From Synechococcus sp. CS-1331 (lineage in GTDB: Bacteria; Cyanobacteriota; Cyanobacteriia; PCC-6307; Cyanobiaceae): a stretch of 64,000 nt of DNA. Positions 4,708 to 19,482 of this stretch are shown piece by piece. The DNA is taken from positions 93,374-157,373 of the forward strand of contig JAHLYQ010000012.1 in the NCBI GenBank assembly GCA_025127975.1, read 5' to 3'. A program made the translations under genes and the position numbers. The notes below the pieces were generated by a model. It saw only the letters and a list, made by a program, of their open reading frames with translations. It was not told where the DNA came from and did no database searches. Each line of letters opens with the position of its first letter. Position 1 is the stretch's first letter.

Positions 4708-5565
4708 TCAACTCGCAGAAGTCTGGGCAGTGGCGGCTGGTTGCGAGCTTGCCGAGATGGGGACTGGCCTGACCCCATGGCGACTGCGCTGGATCACCTC
4801 ACCAGCCTGGAGCAGCAGCGATTCACCGGCCTGAAAGGGCTGCCAGTGCTCGTCGGTGGTGAGCGGCTCAGTGCTGAGGATGGTCACCACATCGTTGGAC
4901 GTGGTGAGCGCCGAGAAATCCACCTGCAGCGGCGGATCCGCCAGCGTGGCCTTGCAGAACGGCGCCCGGCGGGTGAGCCAGTGCAGCCGGCTGGTGGCGG
5001 TGACAAACAGCCACTGGCCGTTGCTGATCAGGGCATTGAAGGTGCCCCGCTCGGCCAGTTGGGCAGCGCAGTGGTGCAGTTGCTCAAACACCGCAGCCGC
5101 GTTGCTGGAATCGACCCCGCTGTGATCGAGCTGCTCCAGGATCCAGCAAAACGCTGCTTCGCTGTCGGTGCTGCCGAAGGGCCGGTAGCGATCGCCCAAG
5201 GGAATGGCGCCTTGGAGGTCGCCGTTGTGGGCAAATACCCAGGTCTGAGCGCCCCAGCTGCGAGAGAAGGGATGGCAGTTCTCCAGCGCCACCACACCGC
5301 GGGTGGCCTTGCGGATGTGGGCGATGCTCACCAAGGCCTTGGGGGAACGCTCCGCCAGCTGGTCCGCCAGGGCCGAGAAGGCCGCCGGGGCTTCTTCCCT
5401 CAAAAGGGTGAGGCTGGGGCGATCCGGGTGGCCATCGGGGGTGAAGCTGGCCAGGCCCCAGCCATCGGCATGCTCGCCACTGGCGCCACCACGCCGGCTG
5501 AGCCCCCGGAAGGAGAAGCCCATGTCGGTGGGGGTATTGGCGTTGAGGGCGAGCAGCTCACACAT
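4708..5565 (-). CDS. Class II glutamine amidotransferase (YafJ-like)
   Basis: A 285-residue Ntn-type amidotransferase. The mature catalytic cysteine is residue 2 (MCELLALN), which fixes the start at ATG 5565. GEHADGWGLASF, HIRKATRGVV, NCHPFSR and FAHNGDLQGA are the usual glutaminase motifs. Stand-alone YafJ-type proteins have no attached synthase domain, and their acceptor is unknown. The gene starts 22 bases after sbpA stops, and its stop lies just before the chrA start, so the three genes look cotranscribed. Confidence 0.88.
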   Translation of the reverse strand: MCELLALNANTPTDMGFSFRGLSRRGGASGEHADGWGLASFTPDGHPDRPSLTLLREEAPAAFSALADQLAERSPKALVSIAHIRKATRGVVALENCHPFSRSWGAQTWVFAHNGDLQGAIPLGDRYRPFGSTDSEAAFCWILEQLDHSGVDSSNAAAVFEQLHHCAAQLAERGTFNALISNGQWLFVTATSRLHWLTRRAPFCKATLADPPLQVDFSALTTSNDVVTILSTEPLTTDEHWQPFQAGESLLLQAGEVIQRSRHGVRPVPISASSQPAATAQTSAS

Positions 5566-5587
5566 GGAAGACTCCGGGAGTGCAGGA

Positions 5588-6628
5588 TCAGCGGGAGTTG
5601 GCGAATAGGCGATCCCAGATGCCGCCGTTGCCAAAGAATTCCTTGTTGACCTGGCTCCAGCCGCCAAAGTCTTTCACCGAAAAGAACGTCTTCACCGGCG
5701 CAAAGCGATCCTTCACCCGCGCCCAAACCGTGGGGCTGGTGGGCCGGAAACCCTCCTCGGCAAAAACCTGCTGCGCCTCATCGGTAAACAGATAGGCAGC
5801 CAGGGCCTCGGCAGCCTCGCGGGTGCCCTTGCGGTCCACATTTTTGTCGACCACCGCCACGGGGCCTTCGATGCGGATGTTCAGCTCCGGCACCACGAAG
5901 GGATCCTTGAGATCGCCGATGCGGGTGGCGAGGATCGCTTCGTTTTCGTAGTTGAGCAGCACGTCGCCCTGGTCGCGCTTGAGGAACACATCTGAGGCTT
6001 CGCGCGCATCCTTGGGCAGGTTGTCGACGTTCTTGTAGACGCTGGTGACATAGGCCTCAGCCTGCTGGGGCGTGCCGCCGGCCTGGGTAATGGAACCCCA
6101 AAGACCCAGGAAATTCCAGCGGGCCCCGCCGGAGGTTTTGGGATTGGCGGTCACCACCGTGACGCCGGGCTTCACCAGGTCCTTCCAGGTGGTGATCTGC
6201 TTGGGATTGCCGGCTCTGGTGAGGAACGCCACAGCCGAGTTGGTGACGATGCCGTTGTTGGGCAGCTCCTGCTCCCAACCGGGCTGAATCAACCCCGACT
6301 CCTCCAGCTTGAGCACGTCGGCGGAGAGGGCCAGGGTGACCACATCGGCGTCGAGCCCGTCGATCACCGTCCGGGTCTGGGTGCCCGAGCCGCCGTAGCT
6401 GGTCTTGATCTCCAGCTCCTGGCCGGTTTTCTGCTTCCACTGCTCCACGAAGGTGGGCAGGATCCGGTCGTAGGCCCCTTTGGTGACGGCGTAGCTCACC
6501 AGCAGCAGCCGCTGGCGTTCACCCGAGCTGCCGCCCTGGGGTGTTGCCGATGGACCGCCGCAACCGGCCAGGAACACGAGCGAGCCCGTGGTGAAGAGGG
6601 CCGCCAGGCACCGCGATTGGATAGTCAC
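5588..6628 (-). CDS. sbpA: Sulfate ABC transporter substrate-binding lipoprotein
   Basis: A 346-residue sulfate/thiosulfate-binding protein of the Sbp/CysP family. It starts at GTG 6628 with a lipoprotein signal ending in LVFLAGCGG (lipobox Cys at about 23). The binding core shows LLLVSYAVTKGAYD, SYGGSGTQTRTVIDGLDADVV and VVTANPKTSGGARWNFLGLWG, all typical of sulfate-binding proteins. It would deliver sulfate to CysTWA, encoded 3-7 kb away. Two copies of the shared 22-bp motif lie in its leader. A second, non-lipoprotein binding protein is encoded directly upstream. Confidence 0.93.
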   Translation of the reverse strand: MTIQSRCLAALFTTGSLVFLAGCGGPSATPQGGSSGERQRLLLVSYAVTKGAYDRILPTFVEQWKQKTGQELEIKTSYGGSGTQTRTVIDGLDADVVTLALSADVLKLEESGLIQPGWEQELPNNGIVTNSAVAFLTRAGNPKQITTWKDLVKPGVTVVTANPKTSGGARWNFLGLWGSITQAGGTPQQAEAYVTSVYKNVDNLPKDAREASDVFLKRDQGDVLLNYENEAILATRIGDLKDPFVVPELNIRIEGPVAVVDKNVDRKGTREAAEALAAYLFTDEAQQVFAEEGFRPTSPTVWARVKDRFAPVKTFFSVKDFGGWSQVNKEFFGNGGIWDRLFANSR

Positions 6629-6650
6629 GTAAACCGGTAGGGAATATGCA
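6629..6650 (-). promoter_or_regulatory. Weaker copy of the sulfate-block motif
   Basis: Read on the minus strand, this segment directly before the sbpA GTG contains ATTCCCTACCGG. It resembles the copy at 10578 in the first half, but only about 13 of 22 positions agree. It is listed because the second binding-protein gene has a similar sequence at the same position relative to its own GTG. Confidence 0.3.
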
Positions 6651-6662
6651 GATACAATACCG

Positions 6663-6684
6663 CGGTTTGCCCATCGGGAATTAG
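6663..6684 (-). promoter_or_regulatory. Sulfate-block motif upstream of sbpA
   Basis: The plus strand reads CGGTTTGCCCATCGG then GAATTAG. It matches the site at 8450 in 19 of 22 positions. Its core TTGCCCATCGGGAA is an imperfect palindrome (TTsCCsATsGGsAA). On the minus strand a TATTGTATCT stretch that could serve as a -10 follows within about 15 bases. Confidence 0.5.
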
Positions 6685-6766
6685 GCGAGAAAAAGCCGCG
6701 GCCGGCTGGCGCGGGGCTGGAGGGGTGTTCGTGTGTGGATGCTGAGTGGAGGGGGGGGGGCTGCGC

Positions 6767-7828
6767 TCAGCGGGAGGCACGGAAGATCTGGTCCCAGATC
6801 GCCCCATCACGGAAGAATTTGCCAGTCACGGCCGGCCAGCCACCGAAGGCCTCGATCGTGTGGGTCTTCACCACGGGAAACTTGCCGCGGGCGTAGGCCT
6901 TGCCCTCGGGCGTGGCAGGGCGGAAGCCGTTATCCGCAAATACCTTCTGGGCAGCCGGGGTAAAGAGAAACTTGGTGAAGGCCTCGGCCACCTTGCGGCT
7001 GCCATTGCGATCCACGTTCTTGTCAACCACAGCAACCGGCTGGGAAGTGAGCACGTTGGGGCTGAAGGTCTTGTAGCCAGCGGTCCACTCGCCCTTGCGT
7101 TTGGCCAGAATCGCCTCGGTTTCCCAGTTGAGCAGTACGTCACCCTGGTTCCGCTTGATGAAGAAGTCGGAGGCCTCGCGGGCATCCTTGGGCAGCACCT
7201 CGACGTTCTTGTAGACGTCGCGGATGAATTGCCGGGCTTGAGCTTCCGAGCCTCCGGCCTGGGTCACAGCGCCCCAAAGGGCGACGAAGTTCCAGCGGGC
7301 ACCACCGGAGGTCTTGGGGTTGGCGGTGACCACGTCCACATTCGGCTTGGCGAGGTCTTTCCAGCTGTTGATCTTCTTGGGATTGCCGGGTCGCACAAAG
7401 GCCACAACCGTGGAGTGGATGGGCGTGGCTTTGTTGGGAAGACGGCTTTCCCAGCCTTTCTTAATTAGCCCGGCCTGCTCGATCCGGGACACGTCGGCGG
7501 CCATGGCCAGATTGACGATGTCGGCATTCAGGCCATCGATCACGGCTCGGGTCTGGGAACCGGAGCCGCCATAGCTGCCCTTGAAGGTGACGGTCTGGCC
7601 GGTTTTCTTTTTCCAGTCGTCGGCGAACAGCCGGAAGATCTGGTCGTAGGCGTTTTTGGTAACCGCGTAGGAGACCAGGGTGAGGGTTTGGGGTTTGGCC
7701 GGCTGCTGGGCCTGCGCCAACGGAGCATTAAGTGTGTTGGCAGCAGTCACAGCCAGAGGTAGGCAGGCGATGCCGGTAAGCAACAGCTGGCGGCGACTGG
7801 GCCGAGCAGAAAAGAGCGTCAAATTCAC
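6767..7828 (-). CDS. Sulfate ABC transporter substrate-binding protein, second copy
   Basis: A 353-residue paralogue of the neighbouring sbpA product, with the same signatures (LTLVSYAVTKNAYDQIF, SYGGSGSQTRAVIDGLNADIV, VVTANPKTSGGARWNFVALWG). The N-terminus differs: a PSRRQLLLTG stretch resembling a Tat motif precedes a hydrophobic segment, and ALAQA-type cleavage is expected near residue 38 (PLAQAQQ), with no lipobox. It starts at GTG 7828. A candidate regulatory motif abuts the start codon, which is odd, and leaves a downstream start possible. Both proteins could feed the single CysTWA transporter. Confidence 0.9.
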   Translation of the reverse strand: MNLTLFSARPSRRQLLLTGIACLPLAVTAANTLNAPLAQAQQPAKPQTLTLVSYAVTKNAYDQIFRLFADDWKKKTGQTVTFKGSYGGSGSQTRAVIDGLNADIVNLAMAADVSRIEQAGLIKKGWESRLPNKATPIHSTVVAFVRPGNPKKINSWKDLAKPNVDVVTANPKTSGGARWNFVALWGAVTQAGGSEAQARQFIRDVYKNVEVLPKDAREASDFFIKRNQGDVLLNWETEAILAKRKGEWTAGYKTFSPNVLTSQPVAVVDKNVDRNGSRKVAEAFTKFLFTPAAQKVFADNGFRPATPEGKAYARGKFPVVKTHTIEAFGGWPAVTGKFFRDGAIWDQIFRASR

Positions 7829-7849
7829 GGTAAGTCGATCGGGAACTAG
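7828..7849 (-). promoter_or_regulatory. Sulfate-block motif at the second binding-protein gene
   Basis: The plus strand reads CGGTAAGTCGATCGGGAA then CTAG, 17 of 22 positions matching the sbpA site. It touches the GTG start codon, so it would act in the leader rather than the core promoter unless the start is misassigned. Confidence 0.4.
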
Positions 7850-7907
7850 AGAAAATTACGTTGCGAAGGCTTGTGGCGTTGTGGCTCAAGGCACACGCCC
7901 AGTCAGC

Positions 7908-7929
7908 GCAATTCCCGACCTGCAAACCG
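7908..7929 (+). promoter_or_regulatory. Sulfate-block motif upstream of the Rrf2 gene
   Basis: GCAATTCCCGACC followed by TGCAAACCG matches the minus-strand form of the sbpA site at 17 of 22 positions. It lies 41 bases before the ATG of the Rrf2 gene in the divergent intergenic region. Confidence 0.45.
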
Positions 7930-7969
7930 TTGTTTACCTGGCAGAATGGGACAAGTTCCAAAGCCAGCC

Positions 7970-8401
7970 ATGGTTTTCAGTGCCAAGACGGAGTACGGAC
8001 TGGTTGCGCTGATCGATCTGGCCGCCGTCTATGCAACTGGCGAGCGCCAGCAGACCGGTGAGATCAGCAGGCGGCATGGCATGCCCGAGCGCTACCTGGA
8101 GCAGATGCTGACCTCCCTGCGCAAAGGGGGCTTCCTTATCAGCGTGCGTGGGCCGAAGGGCGGCCACCAGCTGACCCGTTCGCCAGAGCTGATTACTGTC
8201 TCCGAGGTGGAGGACTGCCTGGAAGGAGACGCCCGAGCCGAGCGCCAGGGCGATCGGAGCAATGCTGAGTTCCGCGTTCTCGATGGGCTGGCCCAGCGGG
8301 CGCACCAGGCCCGAACGGCAGTGCTGAAGGGCACCACGCTGGCCCATCTGCTGCTGGAGCGGGACAGCCTGCGGCAGCCCACGCCGATGTTCTACATCTG
8401 A
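7970..8401 (+). CDS. Rrf2-family transcriptional regulator
   Basis: A 143-residue protein beginning FSAKTEYGLVALIDLA, the hallmark N-terminal helix of Rrf2 proteins. A winged helix follows (ERYLEQMLTSLRKGGFLISVRGPKGGHQL) and then the EVEDCLEG segment. I see only one cysteine, so the three-Cys [Fe-S] site of IscR/NsrR is absent. This fits the CymR-like subgroup that controls cysteine and sulfur genes in other phyla. I chose ATG 7970 because the longer frame is unlike the family. Its place in the sulfate block and the shared motif upstream suggest it regulates that block. Confidence 0.82.
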   Translation: MVFSAKTEYGLVALIDLAAVYATGERQQTGEISRRHGMPERYLEQMLTSLRKGGFLISVRGPKGGHQLTRSPELITVSEVEDCLEGDARAERQGDRSNAEFRVLDGLAQRAHQARTAVLKGTTLAHLLLERDSLRQPTPMFYI

Positions 8402-8449
8402 AGACCCAGGTCGAGACGCACGCGAATCAACCTGTGTGCCCGAAAACAC

Positions 8450-8471
8450 CGGTATGCCCATCGGAAATAAG
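8450..8471 (+). promoter_or_regulatory. Sulfate-block motif upstream of the Crp-type gene
   Basis: CGGTATGCCCATCGG followed by AAATAAG, 19 of 22 positions identical to the sbpA site. A CATACT that could be a -10 follows immediately, so a bound protein would cover the -35 region. Confidence 0.5.
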
Positions 8472-8589
8472 ACATACTCCTGAGCAGTTGCTCTCCGGCT
8501 ATGGCCTGCTGTCTGCGAATGCCTTGCTCTCCTCTGAATTCACACCTCCGTGGCCCAAGTCATTACCCGCCCCATCGCTCGCCGACGCC

Positions 8590-9144
8590 ATGACTTCATC
8601 TCTGCTCAAGCGCCCTTTGCAACTCACGCTCCACCCTCAGGACGTGCTTCCAGAAGGCATGAGTTGGCGGCTGCATGAGGGCTACGTGCGCTCGGCCACC
8701 TGGGATCTGGAAGGGGAGAGCATCACCCTTGGCCTCTGGGCCCCGGGTGATCTGATCACTTCGGAAGATCCCGTGCTCAATCCGCTGGAACTGCAGTGCC
8801 TCACCACCGTGGTGGTGGAGCACATTGAGCTTGATGCAAGCGAGCAGCTCCAGCATCTGCTGCGTGAGCGGCAAATGCTGGCGGAACTGCTAACCATTCA
8901 GCGGATTCGCTCCGGGGACCTGCGCCTGTTGACCTTGCTCAGCTGGATCGGTCAGGCCCACGGGCAGGTAAACAGCCACGGCTGCCGCCTGTCGCTCAGT
9001 GAGCTCAACCTCACCCACCGCTCCCTGGCGGACATCTGCGGGCTGACCCGGGTCACGGTGACCAAGCTGCTGAGCCGTCTTCGCGCGGAAGGGCGTCTGG
9101 TGGCGATTGGCGACAGCGATCTCTTGATCCCCAGCCAGCCATGA
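8590..9144 (+). CDS. Crp/Fnr-family regulator, CysR-like by context
   Basis: A 184-residue protein. The N-terminal part is a short cyclic-nucleotide-binding-like barrel ([23 protein letters not shown]). The C-terminal half is the Crp helix-turn-helix ([32 protein letters not shown]). A longer frame upstream would include the regulatory motif, so I chose ATG 8590. In unicellular cyanobacteria a Crp-type protein, CysR, is encoded within the sulfate permease cluster and is needed for its sulfur response. Context suggests the same role here, but orthology is inferred. Confidence 0.8.
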
Positions 9145-9190
9145 GCCACCCCATCTCTCCTTGGTGCCTGCAATGGGGCCGCGACGGAGA

Positions 9191-9520
9191 ACTGGCCAGG
9201 CAGGGCCCCACCGCATCCAGGGCATCGGGGCGGGCTTTGTGCCGGGCAATCTGGATCTATCACTGATTGACCGGGTCGAGACTGTGAGCGATGCCGATGC
9301 CATCGCCATGGCCCAGCGGTTGATGAAAGAGGAAGGCATTCTGGCCGGCATCTCCTGCGGAGCGGCGGCAACGGTGGCTTTGCGTCTAGCTCGTGATGAG
9401 CGATTCCAGGGGAAGTTGATTGTGGTGGTGCTGCCGGATTCCGGCGAGCGCTATCTCAGCACCGCTCTCTTTGAAAACGTGTTTGATGCCCAGGGCCTAC
9501 CGATTGGTGCCAGGCCCTGA
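9191..9520 (+). pseudogene. cysK: 3' fragment of cysteine synthase (cysK)
   Basis: About 109 residues match only the C-terminal third of O-acetylserine (thiol)-lyase: [57 protein letters not shown] and [13 protein letters not shown]. The PLP lysine and the substrate-loop region, which make up the first two thirds of this ~320-residue enzyme, are missing. The sequence before TGQAGPHR is unrelated to cysK. The fragment cannot be catalytic and marks a deletion next to the Crp-type gene. Confidence 0.85.
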
Positions 9521-9523
9521 GCT

Positions 9524-10531
9524 TCAGATCACAAAGTCCGGCACGAAGGTGCGGGAATCGCGGCTGGTGATGTGCAGGGCATCGCCGGCCTGGAGCTCGC
9601 GGTAATCAATCCTCTCGCGGGGCAGCTGGGCCACCACCACCTCACCGCTGGCAAGGGTGAGTTCGGCTTGGATGTCACGGCCCAGATGGGTGAGACGGCG
9701 CAGCACCGCCGGCACGCTGCCCTCTTGGGGCTGGCGATGTAGCTCCAGGTCGTGGGGCCGAATGAACAGATCGCCCGGCTGCTCCCGATGGGGTGCTAAG
9801 GCCACATGGGAAGGCAGCACATTCACCGCCCCCACGAAACTCATCACAAACGGACTGGCCGGTTGGTCGTAGATCTCGGCGGGGGTGCCTATCTGCTCAA
9901 CGCGCCCCTGGTTCATCACCACGATCTTGTCGGCCACCTCCATGGCTTCTTCCTGGTCGTGGGTGACGATCACGGTGGTGACATGCATCTCGTCGTGGAG
10001 ATTGCGCAGCCAGGCCCGTAGTTCCTTGCGCACCTTGGCATCCAGAGCGCTGAAGGGCTCATCGAGCAGCAGCACCCGTGGCTGCACAGCCAGGGCCCGG
10101 GCCAGGGCCACCCGCTGGCGCTGGCCGCCGGAGAGCTGGGAGGGGTAGCGGTTGCCAAAGCCCTGCAGCTGCACCAGCTCCAGCAGCTCATCGACCCGCC
10201 GGCGGATCGCCTCGTGCTTCCAGCCGCGCAGCTCCAAACCAAAGCCGACGTTTTGGCGCACGGTGCGGTGCTTGAACAGGGCGAAGTGCTGGAACACAAA
10301 GCCCACCTGGCGCTCCTGCACCGAGCGAGTGGTGGCCTCCTCGCCGGTGATCCAGACCCGCCCGGCGTCAGCCTCCTCCAGGCCGGCGATCAGCCGCAGC
10401 AGGGTGCTTTTGCCGGAACCGGATGGTCCGAGCAGGGCCACCAGGGAGCCGGTTTCGACATCAAGGCTGACGTTGTCGACCGCCCGGAAGGAGCCGAATT
10501 CCTTGCAAACACCAGCAACGCGGATGCCCAT
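9524..10531 (-). CDS. cysA: Sulfate/thiosulfate ABC transporter ATP-binding protein
   Basis: A 335-residue ABC ATPase. Walker A is [16 protein letters not shown] (about 34-49), the signature is [15 protein letters not shown] (about 134), Walker B is [13 protein letters not shown] (about 154), and the switch histidine lies in [15 protein letters not shown]-terminal TOBE-like part with FIRPHDLEL follows, as in CysA/PotA types. It powers import through CysT and CysW. It is transcribed away from cysT; the shared 120-bp region contains one copy of the sulfate-block motif. Its 3' end is three bases from the cysK fragment. Confidence 0.93.
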
Positions 10532-10577
10532 GTCAGGGGAGGAAGCGGAACGATGGCAGCAACCCTACAGCAAACAT

Positions 10578-10599
10578 CTATTTCCCCACCGGCAAACCG
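10578..10599 (+). promoter_or_regulatory. Sulfate-block motif between cysA and cysT
   Basis: CTATTTCCCCACC followed by GGCAAACCG matches the minus-strand sbpA site at 18 of 22 positions. An additional inverted pair, ACCGTT and AACGGT separated by 13 bases, overlaps its right end (10597-10621). The site lies 54 bases before the cysT start. Confidence 0.48.
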
Positions 10600-10652
10600 T
10601 TGAATAAATCGCCAAACGGTGATACGGTCCGCCCACTTCCGGTTATTCCTCC

Positions 10653-11522
10653 ATGGCTCCTGCGCTCTCGGCCCGACGCCGGGGATTCACCTGGCCTAGC
10701 TGGCTGCAGCTGAGCTGGTCCTGGCGGATCACCTGGTTGTATCTGGCCTTGGTGCTGTTTCTGCCCCTCGGCGCCCTGGCCCTCAAGGCCGCCGCGGTGG
10801 GCCCATCCCAGTTCTGGCAGCTGGCCACCAGCCCTGAGGCTCTGGCCACTTACCGAATCAGCTTCGGATTGGCGTTTGTGGCCGCTTTGCTCAATGGTGT
10901 GTTTGGCCTCGTGATCGCTTGGGCGCTGGTGCGCTGCTCCTTTCCTGGGCGGCGGCTGCTGGATTCGCTGATCGATCTGCCCTTTGCCCTGCCCACGGCG
11001 GTGGCGGGCCTAGCCCTGGCCGCGATCTACAGCACCAACGGCTGGCTGGGTGCACCGCTTGCGGCCCTTTTCGGCATCAAAGTTTCATTTACCTGGCTGG
11101 GGGTCGCCATCGCCATGGTGTTTATCTCTCTGCCCTTTGTAGTTCGCAGCGTGGAGCCGGTGCTCGAGGCCCTAGAGCACGATCAGGAAGAAGCCGCCTG
11201 GTGCCTCGGCGCCACTCCGCGTCAGACCTTGACCAAGGTGGTGCTGCCCCAGTTGATGCCAGCGATCTTGGCGGGCGTAGCCCAGGGCTACAGCCGGGCC
11301 GTAGGCGAATACGGCTCGGTGGTGATGATCTCCTCCAACGTGCCGTTCCGCGACCTGATTACCCCCACCCTGATCATCCAGAAGCTGGAGGAATACGACT
11401 TCGCCTCCGCGACGGTGATCGGCATGGTGATGCTGATGTTTTCACTACTGAGCCTTTTGGTAATCAACGGGCTGCAGGTGTGGGGACGCAACTGGGAAGC
11501 CAATCCGGCTCAGGGCGCCTGA
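10653..11522 (+). CDS. cysT: Sulfate ABC transporter permease CysT
   Basis: A 289-residue inner-membrane permease with about six hydrophobic segments. It carries the EAA loop contacting CysA (EEAAWCLGATPRQTLTKVVLPQL, about residues 178-200). LIDLPFALPTAVAGLAL and GAVxEYGSVVMISSN-like segments are typical of the CysT/CysU family. It pairs with CysW to form the sulfate channel. It starts at ATG 10653. cysW follows after 64 bases. Confidence 0.93.
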   Translation: MAPALSARRRGFTWPSWLQLSWSWRITWLYLALVLFLPLGALALKAAAVGPSQFWQLATSPEALATYRISFGLAFVAALLNGVFGLVIAWALVRCSFPGRRLLDSLIDLPFALPTAVAGLALAAIYSTNGWLGAPLAALFGIKVSFTWLGVAIAMVFISLPFVVRSVEPVLEALEHDQEEAAWCLGATPRQTLTKVVLPQLMPAILAGVAQGYSRAVGEYGSVVMISSNVPFRDLITPTLIIQKLEEYDFASATVIGMVMLMFSLLSLLVINGLQVWGRNWEANPAQGA

Positions 11523-11586: not shown

Positions 11587-12447
11587 ATGCGTTCATTGCT
11601 GCGCTCCTTCTCAAAAGCCCTGCCCCGCCCATCGGCGGCGGTGCTGATTCCCCTGATCGCTTGCCTATATGTGGGTGTGATTATTGTGCTGCCAGCCTTA
11701 GAAGTAGTGTCAGGAGCTTTTGCTAAGGGGCTGAAGCCTTTTATTGAGAACTTTCAATCGGAGGAGTTGCGCTCGGCCGTGCTGCTAACCCTGCGCTGCA
11801 CTTTGATTGCAGTGCCGGCCAACACCATCTTTGGTCTAGCGGCTGCCACCGCCATTGCCAGGCGTCAGTTTCCGGGCAAAGCGCTGCTGTTGAGCGTGAT
11901 CGACCTGCCCTTCTCAATCTCGCCCGTGGTGGTGGGCTTGATGCTGGTGCTGCTCTACAGCCCCACCAACGGCCTCTTTGGGGGAATCGTGAGCAGCCTC
12001 GGCTGGCAGATCATCTTTTCCTGGCCAGGCATGGCATTGGCAACGGTCATCGTCACCTTCCCCTTCATGGCCCGCGAAGTGATTCCGTTGCTGGAGGAGG
12101 AGGGCTGGGATCAGGAGGAAGCTGCCCGCACCCTTGGTGCCAGCGACTGGCAAGTGTTTTGGAAAGTCACCCTGCCCTCGGTGCGCTGGGCCGTGGTTTA
12201 TGGCCTGATCCTCACTACCGCCCGTGCGCTCGGTGAATTCGGCGCCGTAGCCGTAGTTAGCGGCAACATCGCCGGCCAAACCCAAACCCTGCCGCTTTTT
12301 ATTGAAGACGCCTACAAGCAATACGACACCGAACTGGCCTACGGCGCTGCCCTAATCCTGGGGGGAGTTGGTCTGGTGTCGCTGCTGCTGAAGCTGGTTG
12401 TTGAACAGCTGATGGGTGGAGTGAAGGAGAGCAAGCCGATCAACTGA
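11587..12447 (+). CDS. cysW: Sulfate ABC transporter permease CysW
   Basis: A 286-residue permease paralogous to CysT. The EAA loop reads EEAARTLGASDWQVFWKVTLPSV (about 178-200), and VIDLPFSISPVVVGLMLVLL and TTARALGEFGAVAVVSGNI are CysW-type. It would form the second half of the membrane channel of the sulfate importer. It is cotranscribed with cysT. Confidence 0.93.
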   Translation: MRSLLRSFSKALPRPSAAVLIPLIACLYVGVIIVLPALEVVSGAFAKGLKPFIENFQSEELRSAVLLTLRCTLIAVPANTIFGLAAATAIARRQFPGKALLLSVIDLPFSISPVVVGLMLVLLYSPTNGLFGGIVSSLGWQIIFSWPGMALATVIVTFPFMAREVIPLLEEEGWDQEEAARTLGASDWQVFWKVTLPSVRWAVVYGLILTTARALGEFGAVAVVSGNIAGQTQTLPLFIEDAYKQYDTELAYGAALILGGVGLVSLLLKLVVEQLMGGVKESKPIN

Positions 12448-16612: not shown

Positions 16613-16849
16613 ATGACAACGACGCGGCTCTTCCGCAACGGCAACTCCCAGGCCGTGCGCATCCCAGCCGAGCTCGCCTACGAGCGCAGCGATCTGGAGC
16701 TTGAGATCGAGCGCTGCGGGGATGAACTGCGCATCCGCCCGGCCGCTCGCCCCATTACCGGTGCACTGGAGTCGCTTGCCGCCTTCTCGGCCTCGTTTCT
16801 CGCGGAGGGCCGCGAGCAGGACGAGCAGCAGGAGCGGGAGTCGCTGTGA
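16613..16849 (+). CDS. vapB: VapB-type AbrB-fold antitoxin
   Basis: A 78-residue protein with the SpoVT/AbrB DNA-binding fold: TTRLFRNGNSQAVRIPAEL followed by LELEIERCGDELRIRP. The C-terminal tail (FLAEGREQDEQQERES) is acidic and presumably flexible, as in VapB proteins that wrap the toxin. Its stop overlaps the vapC GTG by four bases. A strong palindrome precedes the ATG. Confidence 0.88.
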   Translation: MTTTRLFRNGNSQAVRIPAELAYERSDLELEIERCGDELRIRPAARPITGALESLAAFSASFLAEGREQDEQQERESL

Positions 16850-17256
16850 GCATCAGGCCCCACTACCTGCTTGATACCAACATCTGCATCTACCTGATGA
16901 AGCACCAGCCCCCGCAGGTGGCGGAGCGCTTCTCCTCCTGCAGGGTTGGAGAGGTGTTGATCTCGGCGATCACCGCTGCAGAGCTGGAGTACGGAGTGGT
17001 GGCCTCCGGCGCCGATGCTGATCGCAACAGCGCCGCCTTGGCGCGCTTTCTGCACGAGGTCCCCGTGGCGCCCTTTGATGGGGCGGCAGCCCGCGTCTAC
17101 GGCCCTGTACGCATGGCGAGTCGGGAGCGGCGCCGTGATGCCCTCGACAAATTGATCGCAGCGCACGCCCTGGCGCTCGACGTCACCCTCGTAACCAACA
17201 ACCCCCGTGACTTCGCCTCCTACCCGGGCCTAAGGCTCGAGAACTGGGTGGACTGA
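16846..17256 (+). CDS. vapC: VapC-type PIN-domain ribonuclease toxin
   Basis: A 136-residue PIN toxin. The acidic active-site residues are present: LLDTNICIYLMK (first Asp), ITAAELEYGV (Glu), RDALDKLIAAHAL (Asp), and VTNNPRDF near the end. This is the VapC/StbB layout that cleaves tRNA or other RNA in a Mg-dependent manner. The start is GTG, overlapping the vapB stop. It appears intact. Confidence 0.9.
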   Translation: MSIRPHYLLDTNICIYLMKHQPPQVAERFSSCRVGEVLISAITAAELEYGVVASGADADRNSAALARFLHEVPVAPFDGAAARVYGPVRMASRERRRDALDKLIAAHALALDVTLVTNNPRDFASYPGLRLENWVD

Positions 17257-18783: not shown

Positions 18784-18804
18784 GTGGCTACCATTGATAA
18801 CCAC
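18784..18804. promoter_or_regulatory. Imperfect palindromic operator of the second vapBC pair
   Basis: A 21-bp near-palindrome runs from GTGGCTACCA to GATAACCAC; 17 of 21 positions are symmetric. It ends 16 bases before the TTG chosen as the vapB start and overlaps a more distal in-frame TTG at 18794. This argues for the downstream start. Confidence 0.5.
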
Positions 18805-18820
18805 CACGGAGCTGCTGCTG

Positions 18821-19069
18821 TTGGATACCGCGCGTCTGTTTCAGTCGGGCCGCAGTCAGGCTGTCCGTCTGCCCAAGGATTACCGCTTCTCCGGCCGTGA
18901 AGTGGTGGTGAAGCACTTTGGCAATGGCGTGCTGCTGCTGCCCATAGACGATCCATGGCAGACCATGGAGGCAGGACTTGCTGCCTTTGAGCCGGGATTC
19001 GAGTTGGAGCGGGACCAGCCAAATCAGCAAACGCGACCAGCCATCCAGCCAGGTGCAATCCAGCCATGA
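18821..19069 (+). CDS. vapB: VapB-type AbrB-fold antitoxin, second pair
   Basis: From TTG 18821 (GGAG 10 bases upstream) the 82-residue protein opens LDTARLFQSGRSQAVRLPKD, the standard N-terminus of this VapB subgroup, and continues VVVKHFGNGVLLLP and DPWQTMEAGLAAFEPGFELE. The acidic-polar C-terminus would wrap VapC. Its stop overlaps the vapC ATG (ATGA). The more distal TTG at 18794 would place the start inside the operator. Confidence 0.82.
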   Translation: MDTARLFQSGRSQAVRLPKDYRFSGREVVVKHFGNGVLLLPIDDPWQTMEAGLAAFEPGFELERDQPNQQTRPAIQPGAIQP

Positions 19070-19482
19070 TCTTGCTGGACACCAACATCTGCATCTATAT
19101 CATCAATGCCAAGCCAACTGCAGTGCTGCAGCGCTTTCGGCAGTACCGCATCGGTGAGATCGGTGTGTGCAGTGTTGTGGCTGCAGAGCTGGCCTATGGG
19201 GTGGCAAAGAGTGGCTCTATCCGCAATCGCCAGGCGTTGGAAATGTTTCTGGCACCGCTCACGATCCTTCCGTTTGATGAAACTGCCGTCTGGGCCTACG
19301 GCGAGCTGCGAGCGGAGCTGGAGCGCAAAGGCACAACGATCGGTTCACTAGACACCCTGATTGCAGCCCACGCGCTGAGTCAAGGCGCTCTATTGGTTAC
19401 CAACAACACCGATGAATTTACTCGGGTGCCAGGCCTGCAGCTTGACAACTGGGTGAAGGCACCATCACCCGGCGACTCCTGA
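19066..19482 (+). CDS. vapC: VapC-type PIN-domain toxin, second pair
   Basis: A 138-residue PIN ribonuclease of the same subgroup as the protein at 16846 but clearly diverged. It has ILLDTNICIYIIN, VVAAELAYGVAKSG, SLDTLIAAHAL and VTNNTDEFTRVPGL, so all acidic positions are present. It appears intact and coupled to vapB. Confidence 0.9.
   Translation: MILLDTNICIYIINAKPTAVLQRFRQYRIGEIGVCSVVAAELAYGVAKSGSIRNRQALEMFLAPLTILPFDETAVWAYGELRAELERKGTTIGSLDTLIAAHALSQGALLVTNNTDEFTRVPGLQLDNWVKAPSPGDS

Follow-up and report, generated by a model that had tools for sequence, protein, structure and literature searches.

Which protein reads a 22-base-pair (bp) motif that recurs between the sulfate-uptake genes of a picocyanobacterium? 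The question is raised by a stretch of 64,000 nucleotides from Synechococcus sp. CS-1331 (contig JAHLYQ010000012.1, positions 93,374 to 157,373; the whole stretch is called the window here and is numbered from its first letter), in which genes for two sulfate-binding proteins and for the transporter parts CysA, CysT and CysW surround genes for two regulators, one of the Rrf2 family and one of the Crp type. A first-pass annotation had taken the motif for the operator of one of these two regulators and for the mark of a sulfur regulon. Our analysis supports this idea and favours the Rrf2 protein encoded at 7970–8401, rather than the Crp-type protein, as most likely the binder. We consider it quite probable that the motif is the operator of this protein acting as a CymR-like repressor, in a proposed circuit in which CysK and O-acetylserine (OAS) would provide the sensing.

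Results and Discussion

The five main sites were found at exactly the coordinates of the first-pass annotation. Compared with the consensus CGGTTTGCCNATCGGGAATTAG they match at 22 of 22 positions (6663), at 19 (8450 and 10578) and at 18 (7828 and 7908), while the best other place in the 64 kb reaches 15; the sites at 6663 and 8450 are indeed identical at 19 of 22 positions. As an independent test we applied to the window a matrix built from relatives only (33 sites; the window genome and three near-identical genomes were left out). It gives the five sites 24.2–26.8 bits and the next unrelated place 13.3. A sixth, weaker site had been proposed at 6629–6650. It does exist (16.9 bits with the same matrix), but its register had to be shifted to 6627–6648, where it reads ACGTAAACCGGTAGGGAATATG and has a counterpart in six aligned relatives. 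The predicted operators, with the kind of support in brackets, are:

6663–6684, plus strand: upstream of sbp2, 22/22 match to the consensus (consensus, genome pattern, matrix, alignment)
6627–6648, plus strand: weaker predicted operator beside the start of sbp2 (relatives-only matrix, aligned relatives)
7828–7849, plus strand: predicted operator of sbp1, at −3 to +18 of the inferred transcription start (consensus, matrix, alignment)
7908–7929, minus strand: predicted operator of rrf2, 40 bp before the ATG (consensus, matrix, alignment)
8450–8471, plus strand: predicted operator of the crp-type gene, immediately ahead of the inferred −10 box at 8473–8478 (consensus, alignment)
10578–10599, minus strand: between the divergent cysA and cysT (consensus, genome pattern, alignment)

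The CC-AT-GG-like dyad that had been read into the motif holds only in part, the strongly fixed positions in 46 sites being CGGT at 1–4, T at 12, GG at 14–15 and AA at 17–18.

In the whole genome (2.5 Mb, 47 contigs) the pattern CGGTTTGCCNRTCGGGAATTAG with up to three mismatches has four matches, all of them inside the sulfate block, and its reversed control has none; the 7828 site differs from this pattern at more than three positions and is thus absent from the four. A shorter core pattern matches nine places, five in the block and four elsewhere, against seven for its control. With four matches elsewhere against seven in the control no additional targets stand out, and a wider regulon in this genome was rejected. 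The best motif score at the cysE locus is only 4.5. A motif from chloroplast cysT/cysA, TAAWATGATT, as given in the part of its source available to us (PMC3773388), looks unrelated to the 22-mer and was set aside.

For the relatives, a matrix of 46 sites was run over 1.006 Mb in 61 regions that surround homologues of rrf2. The 46 kb of windows upstream of rrf2, crp, sbp, cysA, cysT and cysW homologues contain 74 sites of at least 15 bits, and the 960 kb outside these windows contain 5. The contrast shows placement and gives no independent rate, because the matrix draws in part on sites discovered in the scanned regions. In alignments of 7–11 sequences per promoter the operators are better conserved than their flanks. 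A broader pattern search was noisy (228 of 400 genomes match at up to two mismatches, with control matches in many genomes), and mainly clustered matches were pursued. Strong copies were also seen on the downstream side of rrf2 at two loci, L096 (9627–9648, 23.4 bits) and L095 (2182–2203, 21.8 bits), which belong to genomes lacking a Crp match (G205 and G240).

The Crp-type gene lies within the block, which would suit a CysR-like regulator that reads the 22-mer and activates the block. We judge this quite unlikely and reject the Crp-type protein as owner, since the sites persist without crp. In G072, a single-contig genome of 100% completeness that carries rrf2, sbp and cysATW, a close Crp is lacking (best match 39–40%) and sites are retained at sbp, at rrf2 and at cysA/T; crp-less G084 retains the cysA/T site. 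The occurrence of the 22-mer is thus not tied to the crp gene.

The same conclusion follows from the site before rrf2 itself, which persists about 40 bp upstream in genomes without a Crp match. In 22 loci, picked by hand for having rrf2 apart from crp, we allowed a site at 36–49 bp before rrf2 in one orientation. A score of at least 8.3 bits is reached by 13 loci and one of at least 3.7 by 18; in first-order Markov shuffles a score of 8.7 is attained in 0.03% of cases and one of 2 in 0.4%. Sixteen of these loci belong to genomes without a Crp match at 1e-15, and here 8 reach 8.3 and 12 reach 3.7.

A third argument for the Rrf2 protein comes from outside the picocyanobacterial family, where the motif frame precedes rrf2–cysK operons. 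A search with an Rrf2 profile gave matches in 133 of 339 genomes, and we took the 20 best-scoring loci from other families, which is a non-random sample. All 20 proteins end in MYYI, and in 17 of these best loci cysK follows directly downstream of rrf2, a genetic link of the kind known for CymR and CysK. Upstream they have CAAACCCCAGTGGAGAACCG in common, with a TATAAT or TATACT box after it; in 16 of 20 the distance between ACCG and GTAT is the same. Read on the opposite strand, the element becomes CGGTTCTCCACTGGGGTTTG, which has the frame of the window motif (CGGT, T12, GG14–15) and differs mainly at 17–18, where TT replaces AA. A search of 386 genomes for CGGTTCTCCACTGGGGTTTG with up to two mismatches gave 39 places in 37 genomes, and none for its reversed control. 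Thirty-five of the 39 precede an Rrf2 match by 42–422 bp and share one orientation. Of the remaining four, one stands directly before cysK and another before rrf2, separated from it by a 328-codon frame; for the last two no link is visible. In a tree of Rrf2 proteins the 62 picocyanobacterial sequences make up one clade and the 20 from other families another, and the two join to the exclusion of 7 paralogues (supports 0.88, 0.90, 0.81); L167–L170, PF02082 matches without a tblastn match, and the weak L171 and L172 were excluded from it. Judged from these relatives, a CymR-like Rrf2 repressor that probably cooperates with CysK would be common to many cyanobacteria.

The confinement of the motif to the block in this genome and its company with rrf2 across the phylum also speak against its being read by a third, unlinked regulator or serving as part of the promoter instead of as an operator. 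The sites do lie near inferred −35 and −10 elements; their position relative to the inferred −10 varies, from −57 to −36 at one end to −3 to +18 at the other, and we regard this explanation as very improbable.

The Crp-type regulator probably has a different site of its own in the same promoter, the better candidate being a second element, TGTGGC-N4-GCCACA. Fifteen of 29 loci have it, with 9–10 of 10 positions, at a distance of 71–76 bp from rrf2 on the upstream side; they are 13 of the 23 loci with crp, G182 (crp fragment) and G047 (uncertain crp). At that position it is absent from all three crp-less loci and from G150, which has a distant Crp only; as 10 of the 23 crp-bearing loci lack it too, only the close relative G072 is informative, and the element is a weak discriminator. 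A CRP-shaped palindrome distinct from the 22-mer in the same promoter, missing in close crp-less G072, nonetheless speaks against Crp ownership of the 22-mer. In the window we find:

7880–7895, no strand assigned: separate palindrome TGTGGCTCAAGGCACA, candidate site of the Crp-type activator (alignment, locus counts)
8435–8450, plus strand: TGTGCCCGAAAACACC, a Crp-like site upstream of the crp-type gene, half conserved (alignment)

The centre of the palindrome at 7880–7895 falls at −41.5 from the inferred sbp1 start, which is a classical activator position. Relative to the inferred starts the predicted operators cover −35 to −14 at crp, −46 to −25 at rrf2, −42 to −21 at cysA, −3 to +18 at sbp1 and −57 to −36 at cysT; at the first four they overlap the inferred −35/−10 boxes or the start region. 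This geometry would be mostly that of a repressor. At 10596–10620 there is also an inverted repeat, ACCGTT-N13-AACGGT, which overlaps both the end of the operator and the inferred promoter of cysT and is kept in several relatives.

The predicted binder and its neighbours are arranged as follows:

7970–8401, plus strand: Rrf2-family regulator, CymR-like, C-terminus PMFYI; predicted binder
8590–9144, plus strand: Crp-type regulator, CysR-like by position, predicted activator
9161–9520, plus strand: C-terminal cysK remnant
6767–7828, minus strand: sbp1, sulfate-binding protein
5588–6628, minus strand: sbp2, second sulfate-binding protein
9524–10531, minus strand: cysA
10653–11522, plus strand: cysT
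11587–12447, plus strand: cysW, slightly below the CysW equivalog cut-off (326.7 vs 329.1 bits)

The regulator is an Rrf2 protein (PF02082, 90.4 bits; Pfam gathering score 30), and the best-scoring specific model is CymR, over its full length of 1–143. Five relatives from other families reach 101.5–106.8 bits on the CymR model, and IscR models score below it in all nine proteins scanned. By its Rrf2 protein the window genome has its nearest named records in two Synechococcus sp. UW140 MAGs (99 and 94%). The predicted structure (mean pLDDT 89) shows a winged helix-turn-helix and a long C-terminal helix, with the last eight residues outside any helix and the last three at a mean pLDDT of 61. Searching with this model gave 4cic and CymR 2y75 (ranks 3–5, 30% identity) as the best PDB matches. 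In the PDB alignments Staphylococcus aureus CymR and Listeria 3lwf end in MFYI and 4cic in MYYI. The terminal isoleucine is found in 62 of 62 full-length picocyanobacterial orthologues, 61 times as M-x-x-I, and in none of the 7 tail-less paralogues; the rrf2 copy with stops at L069 and the copy cut by a contig end at L083 were not counted.

A C-terminal isoleucine is what anchors CysE in the active site of CysK, and such motifs occur in CymR, according to the parts of PMC12895370 that were available. The neighbouring cysK comprises only the last third of the gene and is truncated in G195 (L109) as well; it is full length and adjoins crp in G069, G168, G192 and G230 (loci L110, L115, L116 and L142). 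Since the local gene is a remnant, the role of partner would fall to the complete cysK on contig C4, which retains TSGNTG. CysE of this genome ends in GITS and has no terminal isoleucine.

Fe–S Rrf2 regulators such as IscR and NsrR carry a three-cysteine cluster motif. The Rrf2 alignments (A1 and A2) contain a single near-invariant cysteine, C83, and no such motif. This residue bears on the possibility that the Rrf2 protein binds the motif and responds to a signal different from CysK/OAS, such as redox state or an Fe–S cluster, or that it activates at some sites. The relatives IscR and NsrR do respond to Fe–S clusters or nitric oxide (NO), as the accessible text of PMC5015018 describes, and the geometry on the cysT side suits activation. 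A single conserved cysteine, the invariant terminal isoleucine and the linkage of rrf2 to cysK in other families speak against it, and we hold this alternative to be unlikely.

Several observations weigh against a CymR-like Rrf2 repressor as the reader of the motif. The protein scores 78 bits on the CymR equivalog NF047409, whose curated cut-off is 195, and membership is therefore not claimed. Upstream of the complete cysK of the window genome a good site is lacking (best 6.9), and the cysT-side operator at −57 to −36 is also compatible with activation. A strict sigma-70 scan found no promoters, which suits activator-dependent promoters and leaves the −10 boxes as guesses drawn from conservation. 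In four genomes (G214, G232, G158 and G009) rrf2 is present and there is no site at the tested position; loci outside the 22 are mixed, with L069 and L121 at 8.8, L088 at 5.1, L124 at 2.6, L082 at −3.7 and L094 at −9.0; and crp-less G068 has no site of at least 11. In distant picocyanobacteria (Rrf2 about 50–55%) the site before rrf2 is mostly unrecognised, and some retain a variant before crp, a point for a Crp-type owner. The latter also gains from G087, G236 and G268, which have crp and motif sites and in which no tail-bearing Rrf2 was found, the sole Rrf2 over the cut-off being a tail-less paralogue. These are drafts (96, 86 and 85% complete), so the absence may be a real loss or an assembly gap.

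For the CymR-like Rrf2 repressor the following circuit may be proposed. Under plentiful cysteine OAS would be low, and CysK would hold the Rrf2 tail (MFYI) in its active site. The CysK-bound Rrf2 protein would be stabilised on the five to six operators and would repress both sulfate-binding proteins, cysA and cysTW, the Crp-type activator and rrf2 itself. Upon sulfur starvation OAS would rise and displace the tail, Rrf2 would leave its operators, and the Crp-type activator could then drive sbp1 from its own site at −41.5. As to the origin of this arrangement, we lean slightly towards an old Rrf2 repressor common to cyanobacteria, with a CysK-docking tail, that in other families guards rrf2–cysK via one operator. 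In picocyanobacteria the cysK neighbour would have been lost and the operator spread to all sulfate-uptake promoters, layered over a Crp-type activator, with CysK, encoded elsewhere in the genome, reporting the sulfur status to sulfate import.

Two further features of the window were noted. The frame at 4708–5667, which resembles a class II glutamine amidotransferase, adjoins the sulfate block or rrf2 in many relatives, including those that have lost other genes of the block. Two possible toxin–antitoxin-like pairs with PIN-type proteins (16846–17256 and 18794–19482) were judged by eye from the frames.

Comparison with known systems

CysR of Synechococcus elongatus PCC 7942 is a member of the Crp family. 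Its gene likewise lies beside sulfate transport genes (PMC12016511, consulted in part), and we see in it the counterpart of the Crp-type partner, likened by position without a sequence comparison, and not a likely owner of the 22-mer. In the text available, CysR is the cyanobacterial regulator of sulfate uptake and no DNA site is named; the main text of that paper contains neither "motif" nor "binding site". Among the matches listed from the open-licence literature, neither titles nor abstracts describe a cyanobacterial CymR-like regulator or the 22-mer, and nothing further on the matter came from PMC10775510, PMC8066212 or PMC8049743. Synechocystis Slr0846 is tabulated, in the accessible portion of PMC7058544, as an uncharacterised "IscR". 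IscR shares the fold, and the best PDB match of the window protein, 4cic, is annotated as T. potens IscR and ends in MYYI; unlike in IscR, only one cysteine is conserved in the window protein, and IscR models score below CymR.

The closest known system is CymR:CysK of Bacillus subtilis and S. aureus (PMC3828012, PMC2940859, PMC2869319, PMC12895370, PMC4961446). CymR has the same Rrf2 fold and targets sulfur and cysteine genes, and CysK is described as a partner that responds to OAS and reinforces CymR on DNA (PMC3828012, PMC2940859). S. aureus CymR and Listeria 3lwf align with the window protein over the full length, MFYI end included. The cyanobacterial families with cysK beside the regulator recall Clostridium acetobutylicum, where the regulator CAC2236 adjoins cysK (PMC3828012, in the part available), and the CysE without terminal isoleucine recalls B. 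subtilis, in which a CysE:CysK complex is reported, in the text at hand, to be absent or non-functional (PMC12895370). The differences are a cyanobacterial host, a score below the equivalog cut-off, a neighbouring cysK that is a remnant, and targets that comprise sulfate uptake and a Crp-type activator. The comparison covers proteins, gene order and targets; the operator on the cyanobacterial side is CGGT-N7-T-N-GG-N-AA/TT. With the operator defined and with candidates for the repressor, for a separate activator site and, through the tail, for the sensor (CysK), cyanobacterial sulfur sensing becomes directly testable. If the reading is true, the CymR:CysK principle extends from the Firmicutes to a second phylum, with a rewiring of its targets that can be traced.

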